This document shows positions 366-12,784 of a DNA stretch of 32,071 nt, piece by piece. The notes beneath the pieces were generated by a model, which was not told where the DNA came from, ran no database searches, and saw nothing but the letters and a program-made list of their open reading frames with translations. Origin of the DNA: Arcobacteraceae bacterium. GTDB lineage: Bacteria; Campylobacterota; Campylobacteria; Campylobacterales; Arcobacteraceae. Numbering within the stretch: position 1 is the stretch's first letter; the number at the start of each line of letters is the position of its first letter. Location: the NCBI GenBank assembly GCA_028687375.1, contig JAQUAG010000024.1:1-32071 (forward strand). The letters are read 5' to 3'. Made by a program: the position numbers and the translations under genes.

Positions 366-2753
366 TCATCTATTTGCTTCGATAATAGTTTTTAACTCTT
401 CACCATCTATCATCTCTTTTTTGATAAGTTCACAAGCCACGGCATCGATAGCTTTCCACAATCGTTTCACCTCTTCTTGTGTCTTTTTAGTAGCTCTTTC
501 TACCCATACCAAAATACGCTCTTCTATTTTTTGGCTCAATATTGGGTTCATCCCAGCTACATTTAAACCTGAAACATTAATATATCCAAGCTCCTCATCC
601 ATACCAAAAATAGCGATAGCAGCATAGATTTGTGCGGTAGATACCTCAAGGTCACTCATCGCTCCTGTCTCCATCCCATCATCTGCATATTTGTACATTT
701 TGGCAATTCTACCTGCAAGAAGGACACAAATATCATTAAAAAGTTCCTCTTTTGATGTTGCATCAATATAGTCATCATTGTGATAGGAAACAAATCCAAG
801 AGCCTCACTTCGTGGAGCAACGGTTACTTGCTCTATTTTAATCTTTGGAAGAAGTATGTAGGATAAAACAGCATGACCAGCCTCATGATAAGCTGTTTTT
901 GACATCGATATTTCGATATCACGGATATTCTTATTTTCCAATTTTGTACCATATTTGATAATATTTATCTGTTCTAAAAGTATCTCTTCGGTTAACTTTT
1001 TTAATCCTTTTCGTGCTGCAAATAAAGAGGCTTCTTGACCGATTCTTTTAAGCTCATTTCCACCCATTCCAGAGATATATCGTGCAAGTCTTTGTGTATC
1101 AATATTTTCATCGTGTGGCTTTTTTAGAATCTCTTTTATAAAAAATGTTCGTGCTTCCATATCGAGTTTTGGAACTTCTATATGGATGTTAATTCTATTG
1201 ACATCTAATAGCTCTTTGGGGATATCTGCATTGCTACTAAGGGTAATAATTGTAAATATTGGAGAATCAAAACTTTGCTGTAAATTATCCAACTCTTCAA
1301 CAATTGGTTCAATACTCATCGTTGAAATCACACCACCCACAATACCTTGAATATCAATATCTTCCAAAATCACAATTGCAGGTGCCACACTATAGGCTTG
1401 TGAATAAGCTTTATGGATATTTTTTGCTGTAAATAAATCAGAACCACTCACGACAACATAGGGGATATTGGCTTCACTAGCAAATGCTTTTGCTAAAAGT
1501 TTTTTCCCCATCCCTTGTGGTCCATACAAAATCATCCCTTTAGGAATCGCCAAATCAAATTTTTTTAATCGTTTTGGTTCTTTTAGTAGTGAGAGTATCT
1601 CCATCAATTCATTTTTTACTTTTTGGTGTCCTGCAATATCTTTAAATGTAATATCAGAAACTTGCATCGTTTCAGTAGAAGATACACCCAATCTTTCTTG
1701 CATATAAAACCCATTTTTAATGGTACACTCAACTATATTATCCTTTACAGTTATCTCCCATTTCAAATTAACACGATTGTGTTGTTTGTTTATTTTTCTT
1801 AAAAAAAGTTCCTCATTTTCTAAAACTTTTTCCAAAAACTGTTTTGCTTTTGGTGCTATTTGATAATCAATTTGGATTATATTTTCATGTGATTTTAAAA
1901 TCTCATAAATATGATTAAACATCAATTTTGGAATCTTCTGTTTTATATGTCTTGCATTGAGATAAGGAGCTAGAGTGAGAGTTAGAAGTGAAATAATAGT
2001 ATCAAAATCTCGATATTCTATCGCTACATCACTTTTTTTGATAAAGGATTGGGTCATTTGATGTAGTGCCCTAGCCCCAATTTTAATCAAAGCTTTTAAA
2101 CCCAATGGATGAAAAGGGACAATGGTATGTTCATTAAGCAGTGAAAGTAACTTTCTATCAAATGCCAATTCGATACTCTCTTCTGTCAAAATTTGCTCTT
2201 TTGCTATTTGTTCAATAAGAAATGTATGGGCTTGTAAAGGGTCAGATTTGAATAGTTTTTGAACATCTTTTCGTTGAAGTAGCGAAGATAACAGTGTCGT
2301 AGTTAGCACCACAATAATAGAAGAAAAATCAACTTCATTTTTTTCATAATCGGTAAAAAGTGTGTAAAGAGCGAGTTGTATCTGCAAATCTGCTTTTTCA
2401 ATATCTTCAAAAACCAAAATAGCATTTGGATTATTTTTAACAAACTCTATCACCTCTTTTAAAAAAGGTTGTTCATTAGCCGTGCCACTATACTGTTCCA
2501 TATAAAATGTTTTAAGATGTTCAATTTTAGGATTGAGCTTTTCAAGGAGTTCACATGTATAGTGTTTACCACTATTAGCTCCTCCAATAAATGTAAATAA
2601 TGCTTGTACTTTACTTTTACCCTCAAGCATATAGGATTGAAACAAAGTTTTTACAATGATTTCTACGGCATCTTCTTGGTCAAAAAGATTTTCTTTCAAT
2701 CCTAAGGTAAGCTCTTTGATGAGTTGGTTATAGTTTTCTTTACTTTTTTTCAT
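366..2753 (-). CDS. Soluble FtsH-like zinc metalloprotease with two AAA modules
   Basis: 795 residues from ATG at 2753, chosen because AGGGGA stands 7 bases upstream; a GTG at 2780 would add nine residues. The N-terminal module (about 20-280) resembles the second AAA domain of Clp/Hsp100, with P-loop GGANSGKH (57-64) and FEDIEKA (115-121). A second, FtsH-type AAA module follows (about 365-600: FKDIAGH, P-loop GPQGMGKK 411-418, VILEDID). An M41 peptidase domain ends the protein, with HEAGH (623-627) and the likely third zinc ligand Asp701 in SDLEVST. FtsH normally has two N-terminal membrane helices; I see none here, so it is probably cytoplasmic. Both P-loops lack the Ser/Thr after Lys, both Walker B pairs read ED rather than DE, and the FVG pore loop is deleted. 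It is an M41 family member; its substrates and whether it hydrolyses ATP are unknown. It follows the nuclease gene by only a few tens of bases. Confidence 0.85.
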   Translation of the reverse strand: MKKSKENYNQLIKELTLGLKENLFDQEDAVEIIVKTLFQSYMLEGKSKVQALFTFIGGANSGKHYTCELLEKLNPKIEHLKTFYMEQYSGTANEQPFLKEVIEFVKNNPNAILVFEDIEKADLQIQLALYTLFTDYEKNEVDFSSIIVVLTTTLLSSLLQRKDVQKLFKSDPLQAHTFLIEQIAKEQILTEESIELAFDRKLLSLLNEHTIVPFHPLGLKALIKIGARALHQMTQSFIKKSDVAIEYRDFDTIISLLTLTLAPYLNARHIKQKIPKLMFNHIYEILKSHENIIQIDYQIAPKAKQFLEKVLENEELFLRKINKQHNRVNLKWEITVKDNIVECTIKNGFYMQERLGVSSTETMQVSDITFKDIAGHQKVKNELMEILSLLKEPKRLKKFDLAIPKGMILYGPQGMGKKLLAKAFASEANIPYVVVSGSDLFTAKNIHKAYSQAYSVAPAIVILEDIDIQGIVGGVISTMSIEPIVEELDNLQQSFDSPIFTIITLSSNADIPKELLDVNRINIHIEVPKLDMEARTFFIKEILKKPHDENIDTQRLARYISGMGGNELKRIGQEASLFAARKGLKKLTEEILLEQINIIKYGTKLENKNIRDIEISMSKTAYHEAGHAVLSYILLPKIKIEQVTVAPRSEALGFVSYHNDDYIDATSKEELFNDICVLLAGRIAKMYKYADDGMETGAMSDLEVSTAQIYAAIAIFGMDEELGYINVSGLNVAGMNPILSQKIEERILVWVERATKKTQEEVKRLWKAIDAVACELIKKEMIDGEELKTIIEANR

Positions 2754-2782: not shown

Positions 2783-4183
2783 TTATCCTATATAGATTAG
2801 CTCTTCAGGCTCCACGATGTGCGCTTTTTTATCTAAAGCATTTTCTATAACGCTTCTAAGAATAACTTGCTTATCTTCCTCTCCATGAACCAAATAAACA
2901 GTATAAAGGTCTTCCATTTCCATTATCCATCTTATTAAAGCATTTTGATCCGCATGGGCAGAAAAGCCGTTGATAGTGTGGATACTAGCTTTAATGAGTA
3001 TCTCATCATTGTAAATTTTAATCCATCTTGCACCATCAACAATGTGCCGTCCAAGTGTACCAACCGATTGATACCCTACAAAAATAACTGCATTATAAGG
3101 GTTCCAAAGGCGATTTTTAAAATGATGTAAAATTCTTCCACCTGTACACATACCACTTCCAGCTATGATAATAGCACGACTATTCACTTCATTAATCGCT
3201 TTTGAGCCTTCAACATCAGGGGTATACACTAAATTTTCAAAATCAAAAATAGTACCATCTCGCTCTTTATAATCTTGACATTGTTGACTGAGTAATTCAC
3301 AGTAACCGTTATATACTTGCGTTGCATGGATTGCCATAGGACTATCTAAAAATATTTTACACTCTGGAAGCTCTTTTCTATCATGCATCTCTTTTAAAAT
3401 ACAAAGAATCTCTTGTGTTCTCTCAACCGCAAAAGAGGGGATTAATACATTGCCATCTTTGTGAATTGTCTCAATAATAACCCGTTTAAATTCTGTAATA
3501 CTTGCTTCAACATCCTTATGATTACGGTCACCATAGGTTGATTCAACATAAAGATAGTTAGCATGGGTACATTTTTCTAAATTTGTCATAACCAAATTAT
3601 TATCATTTCCTATATCACCTGAAAATACAATTGTTCTTTCTAAACTATTTTCACTATAGGTAATTTCAATAAAAGCAGCACCTAAAATATGACCAGCATC
3701 ACGATAAGTTACCTTGATACCCTCTTGCAATTCAAATGTTTCATTGTATTGTGGGTATTTCCATAAAAGTTGCAAGGTTTCCTCTACATCTTCTTCTGCA
3801 TATAAAGGTGCTTTGACCTCATTCTCCTTCCCTCGTCTTTCTGCTTTTCTAAAATGTGTTTCATAATCTTCTTGCATAATTTTTGCACTATCAAGTAGAA
3901 TAATCTCTGCTAAATCTCTAGTGGCATGAGTGGCATAAATAACACCTCTAAACCCCTCTTTTACCAATTTTGGTATACGCCCAACATGGTCAAGATGTGC
4001 ATGGGTAATAAATAAATAATCAATACTAGAAGGTTCGAAACCAAATCGATTATAATTTGAATTTTCTTCTCCCCCTTGAAACATTCCACAATCAATCAAA
4101 ATACGAGGTCCATGCTCGATAGCAAGAAGGTGACAAGAACCAGTTACAACTTCTGCTGCTCCATAAGAGGTTACTGTTGCCAT
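2783..4183 (-). CDS. Beta-CASP metallo-beta-lactamase-fold ribonuclease
   Basis: 466 residues. The metallo-beta-lactamase core shows HAHLDH (61-66), His165 in DAGHILG and Asp190 in SGD. These bind the two zinc ions in this family. The later motifs STYGDR, SFAVERTQE, LDSPMA, GFSAHADQ and HGEEDK mark the beta-CASP/RNA-specificity region of the CPSF73/YSH1-like group. Family members are RNA endo- or exonucleases, so this one probably cleaves RNA in the cytoplasm. It is shorter than RNase J (about 550) and lacks an obvious RNase J C-terminal domain, so it is not RNase J itself. The start follows AAAAGGAAAATTT. Its stop lies just ahead of the FtsH-like gene, and the two are very likely co-transcribed. 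The substrate is unknown. Confidence 0.85.
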   Translation of the reverse strand: MATVTSYGAAEVVTGSCHLLAIEHGPRILIDCGMFQGGEENSNYNRFGFEPSSIDYLFITHAHLDHVGRIPKLVKEGFRGVIYATHATRDLAEIILLDSAKIMQEDYETHFRKAERRGKENEVKAPLYAEEDVEETLQLLWKYPQYNETFELQEGIKVTYRDAGHILGAAFIEITYSENSLERTIVFSGDIGNDNNLVMTNLEKCTHANYLYVESTYGDRNHKDVEASITEFKRVIIETIHKDGNVLIPSFAVERTQEILCILKEMHDRKELPECKIFLDSPMAIHATQVYNGYCELLSQQCQDYKERDGTIFDFENLVYTPDVEGSKAINEVNSRAIIIAGSGMCTGGRILHHFKNRLWNPYNAVIFVGYQSVGTLGRHIVDGARWIKIYNDEILIKASIHTINGFSAHADQNALIRWIMEMEDLYTVYLVHGEEDKQVILRSVIENALDKKAHIVEPEELIYIG

Positions 4184-10435: not shown

Positions 10436-12784
10436 TCAAACGAGACCCATCTCCATAACTTCATCAATAGTTGTTACTGGTATTATCTCCATAGAATCTA
10501 AAACTTCAGCTGGAATATCTTTTAAATCTCTTTTAAAATTTTTAAGTGGGATAAATGCTCTTTTCATATTTGCTTTTGATGCAGCTATAAGCTTCTCTTT
10601 AAGTCCACCAATTGGTAGAACTTTTCCTGTAAGGGTTAGTTCCCCTGTCATTGCAAGATTTGCATAGACTTTTCTTCCACTTAAAATTGATGCAATTGTA
10701 AGTGCCATAGCGATTCCTGCACTTGGTCCATCTTTTGGTGTTGCACCTTCTGGCATATGCATATGGATATCGATATCTTTAAAAACTGCATTTTTGAGTT
10801 TTCCACTATCGATTAAACCTTTAACGACACTATGAGCTATTTTTGCACTCTCTTTCATAACATCACCCATATTTCCAGTAAGGCTTAAAGACCCTTTCCC
10901 TTCAAACTTCACAGCTTCAATTTTTAAAACATCTCCACCAACACTCGTCCATGCAAGCCCATTTACAATCCCTACACTATTTTTTTTGTCAGCTGAATCG
11001 ATTTCAAAAACTGGATTGTCCAAAAACTCTTCAAGATTTTTACTGTTAATTGTTACTTTTGTAAGCTCTTTATCATTTATAAACATTTTTACTGTTTTTC
11101 TAAAAAGTTTATTGAACACTCGTCTAAGATTTCTTACCCCCGCTTCTCTTGTAAACTTCTCAATGATTAAATGAATTGTTGCATCATTTAAACTGATATT
11201 TTTTTTAGCAAGTCCATGTTTAGCTAATTCTTGAGGGATTAGATAATCTTTAGCAATATGAAATTTCTCACTTGGAGTGTAACTATTTATCTCAATAAAC
11301 TCCATTCTATCCCTTAAAGGTGCTGGAATTTTGCTAGCATTATTTGCAGTTGCTACAAAGATACAATGGCTTAGATCTATCTCAAAATTAACATAATGGT
11401 CTCTAAATTTGCTATTTTGCTCAGGGTCTAAAATCTCTAACATAACAGCTGTTGGGTCACCTCGATGGTTTTGCCCTAGTTTATCTATCTCATCTAAAAC
11501 GATTACTGGATTCATTTTAGTAGCAGTTACAAGTGCTGATATAAGTCGTCCAGGCATAGCTCCTACATAAGTTCGTCTATGACCTCGAAGCTCATTTACA
11601 TCTTCAAGTCCACCAAGAGCAAGTCTAGCTAATGGTCGTTTTAATGCACTTGCAATTGAGTTTGCCAAAGATGTTTTTCCAACCCCTGGAGGTCCTACAA
11701 AACAAAGAACTGTTGAGTTATTTGATGATTCTTTAATATTTCTAACTGCAAGATATTCTTTTACTGCGAAATATTCACTTATTCTATCTTTTGCTTTTTG
11801 GAGTGAATAATGATCAGAGTTTAATTGTTTTTCAACATCATCAACAGATATTGTATCATTAGCAAATTTTCCAAATGGAATCTCAAAAATTTGCTCAATA
11901 TAAGTTTGAAGTATTGCAGAATCTCCACTTTCACTGTGCATTCTTGCAAATTTATCTATTTGTTTTTTAACCTCTTTATATCCCTCAGCCCCTATAAACT
12001 CTTTGATATCTTCAAGTTGTTTTCTAAACGCTTCAACCTCTTCATCTTTGTTGTTATCCCCTAGCTCTTTTTGGATAGCTTTGATTTGCTCTTTAAGGAA
12101 ATAATCTTTATTTGTTTTTTCTATTTTTTTATTTACTTTTTGAGTAATTTCACTTTTAAGTTTCAGTGACTCTATCTCATCTTTGATAACTTCGATGATG
12201 TTATAAAGTCGATTTTCAATATTTGTCTCTTTTAAAAGTTCATATGATTGTTTTTTTGTAAGTCGTAAAACGGAAGAGATAAGGTCAGCAATTCGATTTG
12301 CATCATTATTTTCATTTATTGTAGCTATTAAATCAACTGGAAATTTATTATTTACTTTTGAAAGGATTGCTACATTTTGTCTTAAAATTTCTAAAACAGC
12401 ATTTATCTCTTTTTCATTTGATTCCTGATTTGGTAAAATATCAGCTAAAACCATCATAGGGTCTGATTGTTTTATCTCTTTGATTTCTACTTTTGTAAGC
12501 CCTTGAAAAAGAACTTTTATCTTTCCATCTGGAAGAGTGACTTTTCTCATAACATTTCCAGCAATTGCTACTTCATAAAATTCTTTTTCAGTTTTCCCTT
12601 CAAACCCCTCAACACTCACTGCAACAACCAAAAGTTTATTATGATCAATTGCGTACTGAACAGCTTTTTGTCCCGCTTCATCTTCAATAAAAATAGGAGC
12701 AATCATAAATGGATACAAGAACATATTGTCCTCTACCACCAAAGGAAGAGTATTAGGAAATGAGTCATAATCTTTTAAATTCAT
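10436..12784 (-). CDS. lon: ATP-dependent protease Lon
   Basis: 782 residues, the normal length for LonA. The N-terminal substrate-binding domain (about 1-200) is followed by a coiled coil (200-285). The AAA module has Walker A GPPGVGKT (364-371), Walker B VIVLDEIDK and the sensor VATANN. The C-terminal protease has the Ser688 (DGPSAGIAM) and Lys731 (GGLKEK) dyad. Lon degrades misfolded and regulatory proteins in the cytoplasm. Its neighbour upstream is bamD, as in Helicobacter pylori. Unlike the FtsH-like protein at 366-2753, all its ATPase motifs are canonical. Confidence 0.97.
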   Translation of the reverse strand: MNLKDYDSFPNTLPLVVEDNMFLYPFMIAPIFIEDEAGQKAVQYAIDHNKLLVVAVSVEGFEGKTEKEFYEVAIAGNVMRKVTLPDGKIKVLFQGLTKVEIKEIKQSDPMMVLADILPNQESNEKEINAVLEILRQNVAILSKVNNKFPVDLIATINENNDANRIADLISSVLRLTKKQSYELLKETNIENRLYNIIEVIKDEIESLKLKSEITQKVNKKIEKTNKDYFLKEQIKAIQKELGDNNKDEEVEAFRKQLEDIKEFIGAEGYKEVKKQIDKFARMHSESGDSAILQTYIEQIFEIPFGKFANDTISVDDVEKQLNSDHYSLQKAKDRISEYFAVKEYLAVRNIKESSNNSTVLCFVGPPGVGKTSLANSIASALKRPLARLALGGLEDVNELRGHRRTYVGAMPGRLISALVTATKMNPVIVLDEIDKLGQNHRGDPTAVMLEILDPEQNSKFRDHYVNFEIDLSHCIFVATANNASKIPAPLRDRMEFIEINSYTPSEKFHIAKDYLIPQELAKHGLAKKNISLNDATIHLIIEKFTREAGVRNLRRVFNKLFRKTVKMFINDKELTKVTINSKNLEEFLDNPVFEIDSADKKNSVGIVNGLAWTSVGGDVLKIEAVKFEGKGSLSLTGNMGDVMKESAKIAHSVVKGLIDSGKLKNAVFKDIDIHMHMPEGATPKDGPSAGIAMALTIASILSGRKVYANLAMTGELTLTGKVLPIGGLKEKLIAASKANMKRAFIPLKNFKRDLKDIPAEVLDSMEIIPVTTIDEVMEMGLV

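Follow-up and report, generated by a model that had tools for sequence, protein, structure and literature searches.

FtsH-type proteases are regarded as ATP-dependent. The gene at positions 366-2753 of the window (the whole 32,071-nucleotide stretch of Arcobacteraceae contig JAQUAG010000024.1 that was analysed) raises the question of what such a protease does when both of its AAA+ modules look catalytically altered while its zinc site is intact.

A soluble M41 protease with two AAA+ modules

The gene is a genuine open reading frame, running on the minus strand from an ATG at 2753 to a stop at 366 and encoding 795 amino acids. The plus strand over 366-2753 is closed by many stops. An in-frame GTG at 2780 offers an alternative start, while homologues begin at the 2753 ATG; a Shine-Dalgarno-like GGGGAAG lies 5' of this ATG. 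The host genome (Campylobacterota, 2.54 Mb in 51 contigs, 99.67% complete) also encodes a canonical FtsH, so the double-AAA+ M41 protein is an additional one. The features of the locus are as follows.

366-2753, minus strand: coding sequence of a soluble double-AAA+ M41 metalloprotease, 795 aa (frame, Pfam, hydropathy)
2783-4183, minus strand: upstream neighbour, a beta-CASP/MBL-fold RNA nuclease (Pfam), 29 bp before the ATG
2154-2753, minus strand: N-terminal AAA+ module of ClpB/ClpC D2 type, altered (residues 1-200)
2562-2585, minus strand: Walker A of module 1, GGANSGKH (57-64); Lys kept, His replaces Thr/Ser
2391-2414, minus strand: Walker B of module 1, VFEDIEKA (114-121); DE changed to ED
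1659-2153, minus strand: middle region (201-365), lowest conservation
924-1658, minus strand: FtsH-type AAA module and lid (366-610), from alignment; predicted fold matches FtsH
1500-1523, minus strand: Walker A of module 2, GPQGMGKK (411-418); Thr changed to Lys
1404-1448, minus strand: SGSDLFTAKNIHKAY (436-450), FVG loop absent, six-residue deletion (alignment)
1353-1367, minus strand: Walker B of module 2, LEDID (463-467; alignment, VILEDID being 461-467)
1182-1211, minus strand: Arg-finger region LLDVNRINIH (515-524), R520 the sole Arg left
369-923, minus strand: peptidase M41 domain (611-795), Pfam PF01434, E=1.4e-28
873-887, minus strand: HEAGH zinc/catalytic motif (623-627), intact
651-653, minus strand: third zinc ligand Asp701, intact and invariant in the members compared

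On sequence grounds the protein belongs to peptidase family M41: Peptidase_M41 scores 100.5 bits against a gathering score of 29.9 and spans 627-799 of an 804-aa frame, and the HEXXH and Asp ligands are in place, with H623, E624 and H627 invariant across the 34 members compared. Pfam also recognises an AAA domain (E=3.6e-18). The original prediction had described a cytoplasmic M41 protease with two AAA modules of catalytically altered appearance, and comparison with 22 FtsH-like sequences from viral contigs and seven genomic FtsH supports this description. Both P-loops lack the Ser/Thr, as claimed, and both Walker B motifs read ED, VILEDID standing where FtsH has FIDEID. The segment after SGSD, thought to be about six residues short, is exactly six short and without FVG (SGSDLFT------AKNIHK versus SGSDFVEMFVGVGASRVRD). 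A single Arg, R520, remains where LLDVNRINIH aligns with FtsH LLRPGRFDRQ, HEAGH and Asp701 are indeed unchanged, and the sensor-1 Asn is also altered. The predicted absence of membrane helices agrees with a hydropathy scan in 19-residue windows, in which no segment was hydrophobic enough for a transmembrane helix; the best window reached 1.82, compared with 2.04-2.98 in the seven FtsH controls.

The N-terminal module had been called Clp-like, and a profile built from this module in seven family members (A6) matches the second AAA domains of ClpB and ClpC at E about 1e-36 (1.5e-36 against ClpB D2, 1qvr); on its own, the window protein falls just below the 27-bit cut-off of Pfam AAA_2, at 26.8 bits. 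Basal relatives share with ClpB, ClpC and ClpA D2 the motifs GPPATGKT and FDEIEKA and an aromatic loop. Whereas those proteins pair with ClpP or act as a disaggregase, here one Clp-type module is fused to AAA-M41 and its motifs are altered.

The C-terminal half resembles FtsH in its AAA and M41 order, its HEAGH and Asp, its predicted fold and about 26-32% identity. It differs from FtsH in the deleted FVG loop, GKK, LEDID and the single Arg, and the whole protein differs in having no transmembrane anchor and an extra N-terminal Clp-type module. Its score against the FtsH equivalog TIGR01241 is 220.7 bits, where the NCBI cut-off is 600. A full-length model from three sequences was poor (pLDDT 40.5). 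The C-half model from 25 alignment rows reached pLDDT 79.5 and matched FtsH 2ce7_E (Z 28.8, rmsd 3.8, 388 residues aligned) and the isolated FtsH protease domain 2di4_B (Z 18.0, rmsd 2.3), but since its rows are mostly FtsH, the model leans towards FtsH and shows compatibility, not function.

Elsewhere in the window (10436-12784, minus strand), Pfam identifies the AAA and Lon_C domains of a Lon protease, which places an ATP-dependent Lon on the same contig as the M41 protease.

Motor states across the family

About 45 family members emerged from searches of Campylobacterota genomes. Judged by the listed matches that exceed the FtsH background, they are spread patchily over 39 of the 397 genomes sampled from the class (~10%). 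A single scan of genome contigs, the one search reaching other bacterial phyla, relied on patterns from the window protein only and gave 3 loci. In a tree of the AAA2 and M41 half with the motif columns removed, the family falls outside FtsH with support of 100/100. One derived clade holds 35 sequences (100/99), and the members basal to it are mostly Walker-intact. Outside this clade most members have 850-1100 aa. The basal motifs are GPPATGKT and FDEIEKA in module 1 and GPPGTGKT and FIDEID in module 2 (L041, L084, L089, L090, L092), and L010, also basal, has intact Walker motifs in a variant spelling. L009 is an exception outside the derived clade, with an altered first module. The zinc site is nearly constant: of the 45 members covering HEXXH, 44 retain it, and the seven members without the N-module still have the M41 site. 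The exception is the basal L091:5590-8220, where HEXXH reads YEAGH; its Walker A is intact in both modules, and its Walker B is intact in module 2 and reads DAFE in module 1. It is possibly a protease-dead member, or a sequencing error.

Within the derived clade the N-module is altered or deleted in 35/35 sequences, and the Walker B of the C-module is altered in 30/35. ED occurs in both modules of all 15 members of the window's subclade. LEDID is found in two derived subclades, the window's (15 members) and a 450-aa group without the first module, and another derived subclade reads EGVD, ESVD, DNVD or ENVD at this site. Since subclade C (L006, L073, L075, L080, L081) keeps an intact module 2, with GKT and DE, ATP hydrolysis has probably survived in part of the derived clade. 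The best tree implies repeated loss of the C-module Walker B, with 2 changes by parsimony. The AU test rejects neither the grouping of the LEDID subclades (B+E, p 0.205) nor that of all altered subclades (B+D+E, p 0.173), so a single loss is also possible.

These comparisons bear on three points of the original prediction. It had asked whether the substitutions recur among homologues, and throughout the window's subclade they are fixed. As contrary evidence it had named homologues in which canonical P-loops and DE occupy the same columns; such sequences do exist among the basal members (L010 and the five with standard motifs above). Because the altered state is fixed in the window's subclade, they give the direction of change, from intact to altered, and do not refute the reading. 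The loss of FVG in module 2 and the single Arg had, by contrast, been over-read as signs of a dead motor. Both are found in every family member, the Walker-intact ones included, and are therefore no proof of a dead motor on their own; the Walker changes are the informative ones. Since FVG is absent even from motor-intact members, these may translocate through the loop of the N-module, or not at all. In Walker-intact members the Clp-type pore position of module 1 is occupied by an aromatic loop (GYKN, GYSD, FWGN and similar) that the window's subclade lacks, from which we infer that the ancestor may have threaded its substrates through a ring of module 1.

Two relatives are broken copies: L082 lies in two frames (664 + 161 aa), and L087 was reported with one internal TAA. 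In the plasmid collection no match spanned 80% of the window protein, and in the plasmid and phage collections none spanned 80% of a basal member. On viral contigs none of the listed matches starts before residue 348, which confines them to the FtsH-like half. PADLOC hits to IetA were taken as a shared AAA fold only. Among the papers listed in literature searches on degenerate-motor FtsH/M41, tandem AAA, Epsilonproteobacteria, Arcobacter and DUF4062, no title or abstract describes the family.

Selection on the altered sites

When the window gene was compared with each of its three nearest relatives, dN/dS was 0.05-0.24 over all domains, and between L034 and L035 it was 0.03-0.12; dS was near saturation in both comparisons, and the values are therefore approximate. 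They are lowest in M41, and a range of about 0.03-0.24 argues against a pseudogene. Mean identity inside the window's subclade is 57-84%, with the motif residues fixed. K63, E116 and D117 are invariant there although the mean identity of module 1 is 57%, and in alignment A1 the P-loop lysines K63 and K417 are invariant together with H623/E624/H627/D701. Purifying selection thus retains the altered sites, a pattern more in keeping with modules that bind nucleotide but do not hydrolyse it than with simple decay.

Genomic neighbourhoods

A beta-CASP gene also lies upstream of the protease in three close relatives, L034, L035 and L036. A conserved-neighbour search gave no partner gene common to all subclades. 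Large DUF4062-type proteins adjoin motor-intact basal members at L194:3328-18784, L191:5646-16000 and L195:9963-16603. Pfam confirmed DUF4062 in two L194 neighbours, together with NACHT/NPHP3-like domains; for L191 and L195 the assignment is one of sequence resemblance only. A TIR protein and a TrkA_N protein are also found around L194. These three surroundings are possibly conflict or defence islands, and their basal motor-intact members, beside DUF4062 and TIR genes, would be an apparently unexplored kind of AAA+ protease. The setting of another basal relative, L193, is a heat-shock operon context. The neighbours thus point to a stress or conflict connection for the basal forms, and not directly for the window's gene.

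L193:3-2760 itself is truncated by its contig; it directly follows dnaJ-type and HspR-like MerR genes and overlaps the latter. The loci L034:3296-6022, L036:3317-6019, L095:2045-4558 and L096:2118-4691 have a P-type ATPase-like gene upstream of the protease; two of them belong to the window's subclade and two to 450-aa members.

A probably retired motor and its alternatives

We consider it somewhat probable, from the analysis as a whole, that the window protein is a cytosolic M41 protease with a retired motor, which binds ATP but does not hydrolyse it and needs none to degrade unfolded chains. This reading is favoured because the hydrolysis motifs are altered while the P-loop lysines and the zinc site are invariant. 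The ancestor would have been an ATP-driven double-AAA+ M41 machine. In its descendant both modules would still fold and assemble into a ring. The retained lysines suggest that they bind nucleotide, giving the ring its structure or gating it, but they would neither hydrolyse ATP at a useful rate nor thread substrates. As in LonC, the intact, self-compartmentalising M41 chamber would then need no ATP to degrade loose segments or chains that have already unfolded. LonC (MtaLonC), with the Walker A sequence GPPSLGKH, shows no ATPase activity; it does bind ATPgammaS, and its degradation of unfolded proteins requires no ATP (PMC3391209). The two share a degenerate AAA with the P-loop Lys kept, GKH in place of GKT/S (in module 1 here) and an active protease domain (predicted here); LonC, however, carries the unrelated Lon-type protease domain, so the likeness is an analogy and not protease homology. 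Plastid FtsHi is likewise an M41-type AAA protein with one of two activities lost, but the loss is the opposite one, the ATPase being kept and HEXXH lost (PMC8197885).

The chief alternative is a protease or remodeller that still depends on ATP but works slowly, its ED Walker B motifs and GKH and GKK P-loops hydrolysing ATP at a low rate. Changing Asp to Glu and Glu to Asp is conservative, both residues being acidic, so slow hydrolysis is possible, and the fixation of ED in both modules across the subclade could mean retuned, not lost, catalysis. The retained P-loop lysines and the intact module 2 Walker set of subclade C are in line with this. The Walker A Thr/Ser, the sensor-1 Asn, the second Arg and the FVG loop are, however, jointly missing, and the 450-aa members dispense with module 1 entirely. 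We judge an active ATPase unlikely on balance, though worth serious attention. No measured effect of a Glu/Asp swap in PspF was found in PMC3419264. Far less credible still is a decaying gene heading for loss. Eroded motor motifs and the broken L082 and L087 might suggest one, but low dN/dS in every domain, module 1 included, the invariant zinc site and motif residues fixed at 57-84% mean identity already speak against it, and we give it almost no weight.

There are two further readings. The window protein might be a partner-driven subunit, assembled with a motor-intact FtsH-like pseudo-protease of the type widespread in Campylobacterota or with canonical FtsH, either of which would unfold substrates and hand them over. 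The same genome does encode such a protein (L003), with GPPGVGKT, FIDEIDA, an FVG-like pore loop and YQASKAF for HEXXH, and heteromeric FtsH/FtsHi complexes are known in plastids (PMC8197885). This candidate is, however, membrane-anchored and present in most genomes searched, while the window protein is soluble and patchy; the two genes lie on different contigs, and the candidate has nothing that corresponds to module 1. We hold a partner-driven subunit to be improbable. Alternatively, the AAA modules might be a docking scaffold only, in a regulatory protease with one or a few native substrates. A protease that no longer threads its substrates is unlikely to degrade folded proteins in bulk, and the patchy distribution and variable middle region would suit such specificity. 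Yet no substrate or partner gene is linked consistently across subclades, and the dnaJ-hspR type operon of a basal relative points to general quality control, so that a dedicated regulatory protease has only a small chance of being right.

Returning to the retired motor, we propose more tentatively that the window's subclade represents an M41 protease gated by nucleotide and by nature independent of ATP, an FtsH-type counterpart of LonC. It may have arisen within Campylobacterota from a double-AAA+ M41 machine linked to stress or conflict, by stepwise motor loss with living intermediates. If this were true, the series from intact to altered to deleted motors over the same zinc site would reveal which motor parts of an M41 protease are dispensable under selection, and the GKH and GKK P-loops and the change from DE to ED would be natural variants for probing the roles of Walker residues.

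A membrane-anchored paralogue

The L003 protein (L003:316-1779, contig C16 of the same genome) is a membrane-anchored FtsH-like paralogue in which the Walker motifs are intact and HEXXH has become YQASKAF. Judged by its motifs, this type of paralogue may be a bacterial FtsHi-like pseudo-protease, with a loss opposite to that of the window protein. The paralogues L196-L199 likewise have intact Walker motifs and an FVG-like pore loop, with YQASKA, YQAAKA or YKAAKA in place of HEXXH, and most Campylobacterota genomes searched have a second FtsH-like hit of the size of L003.
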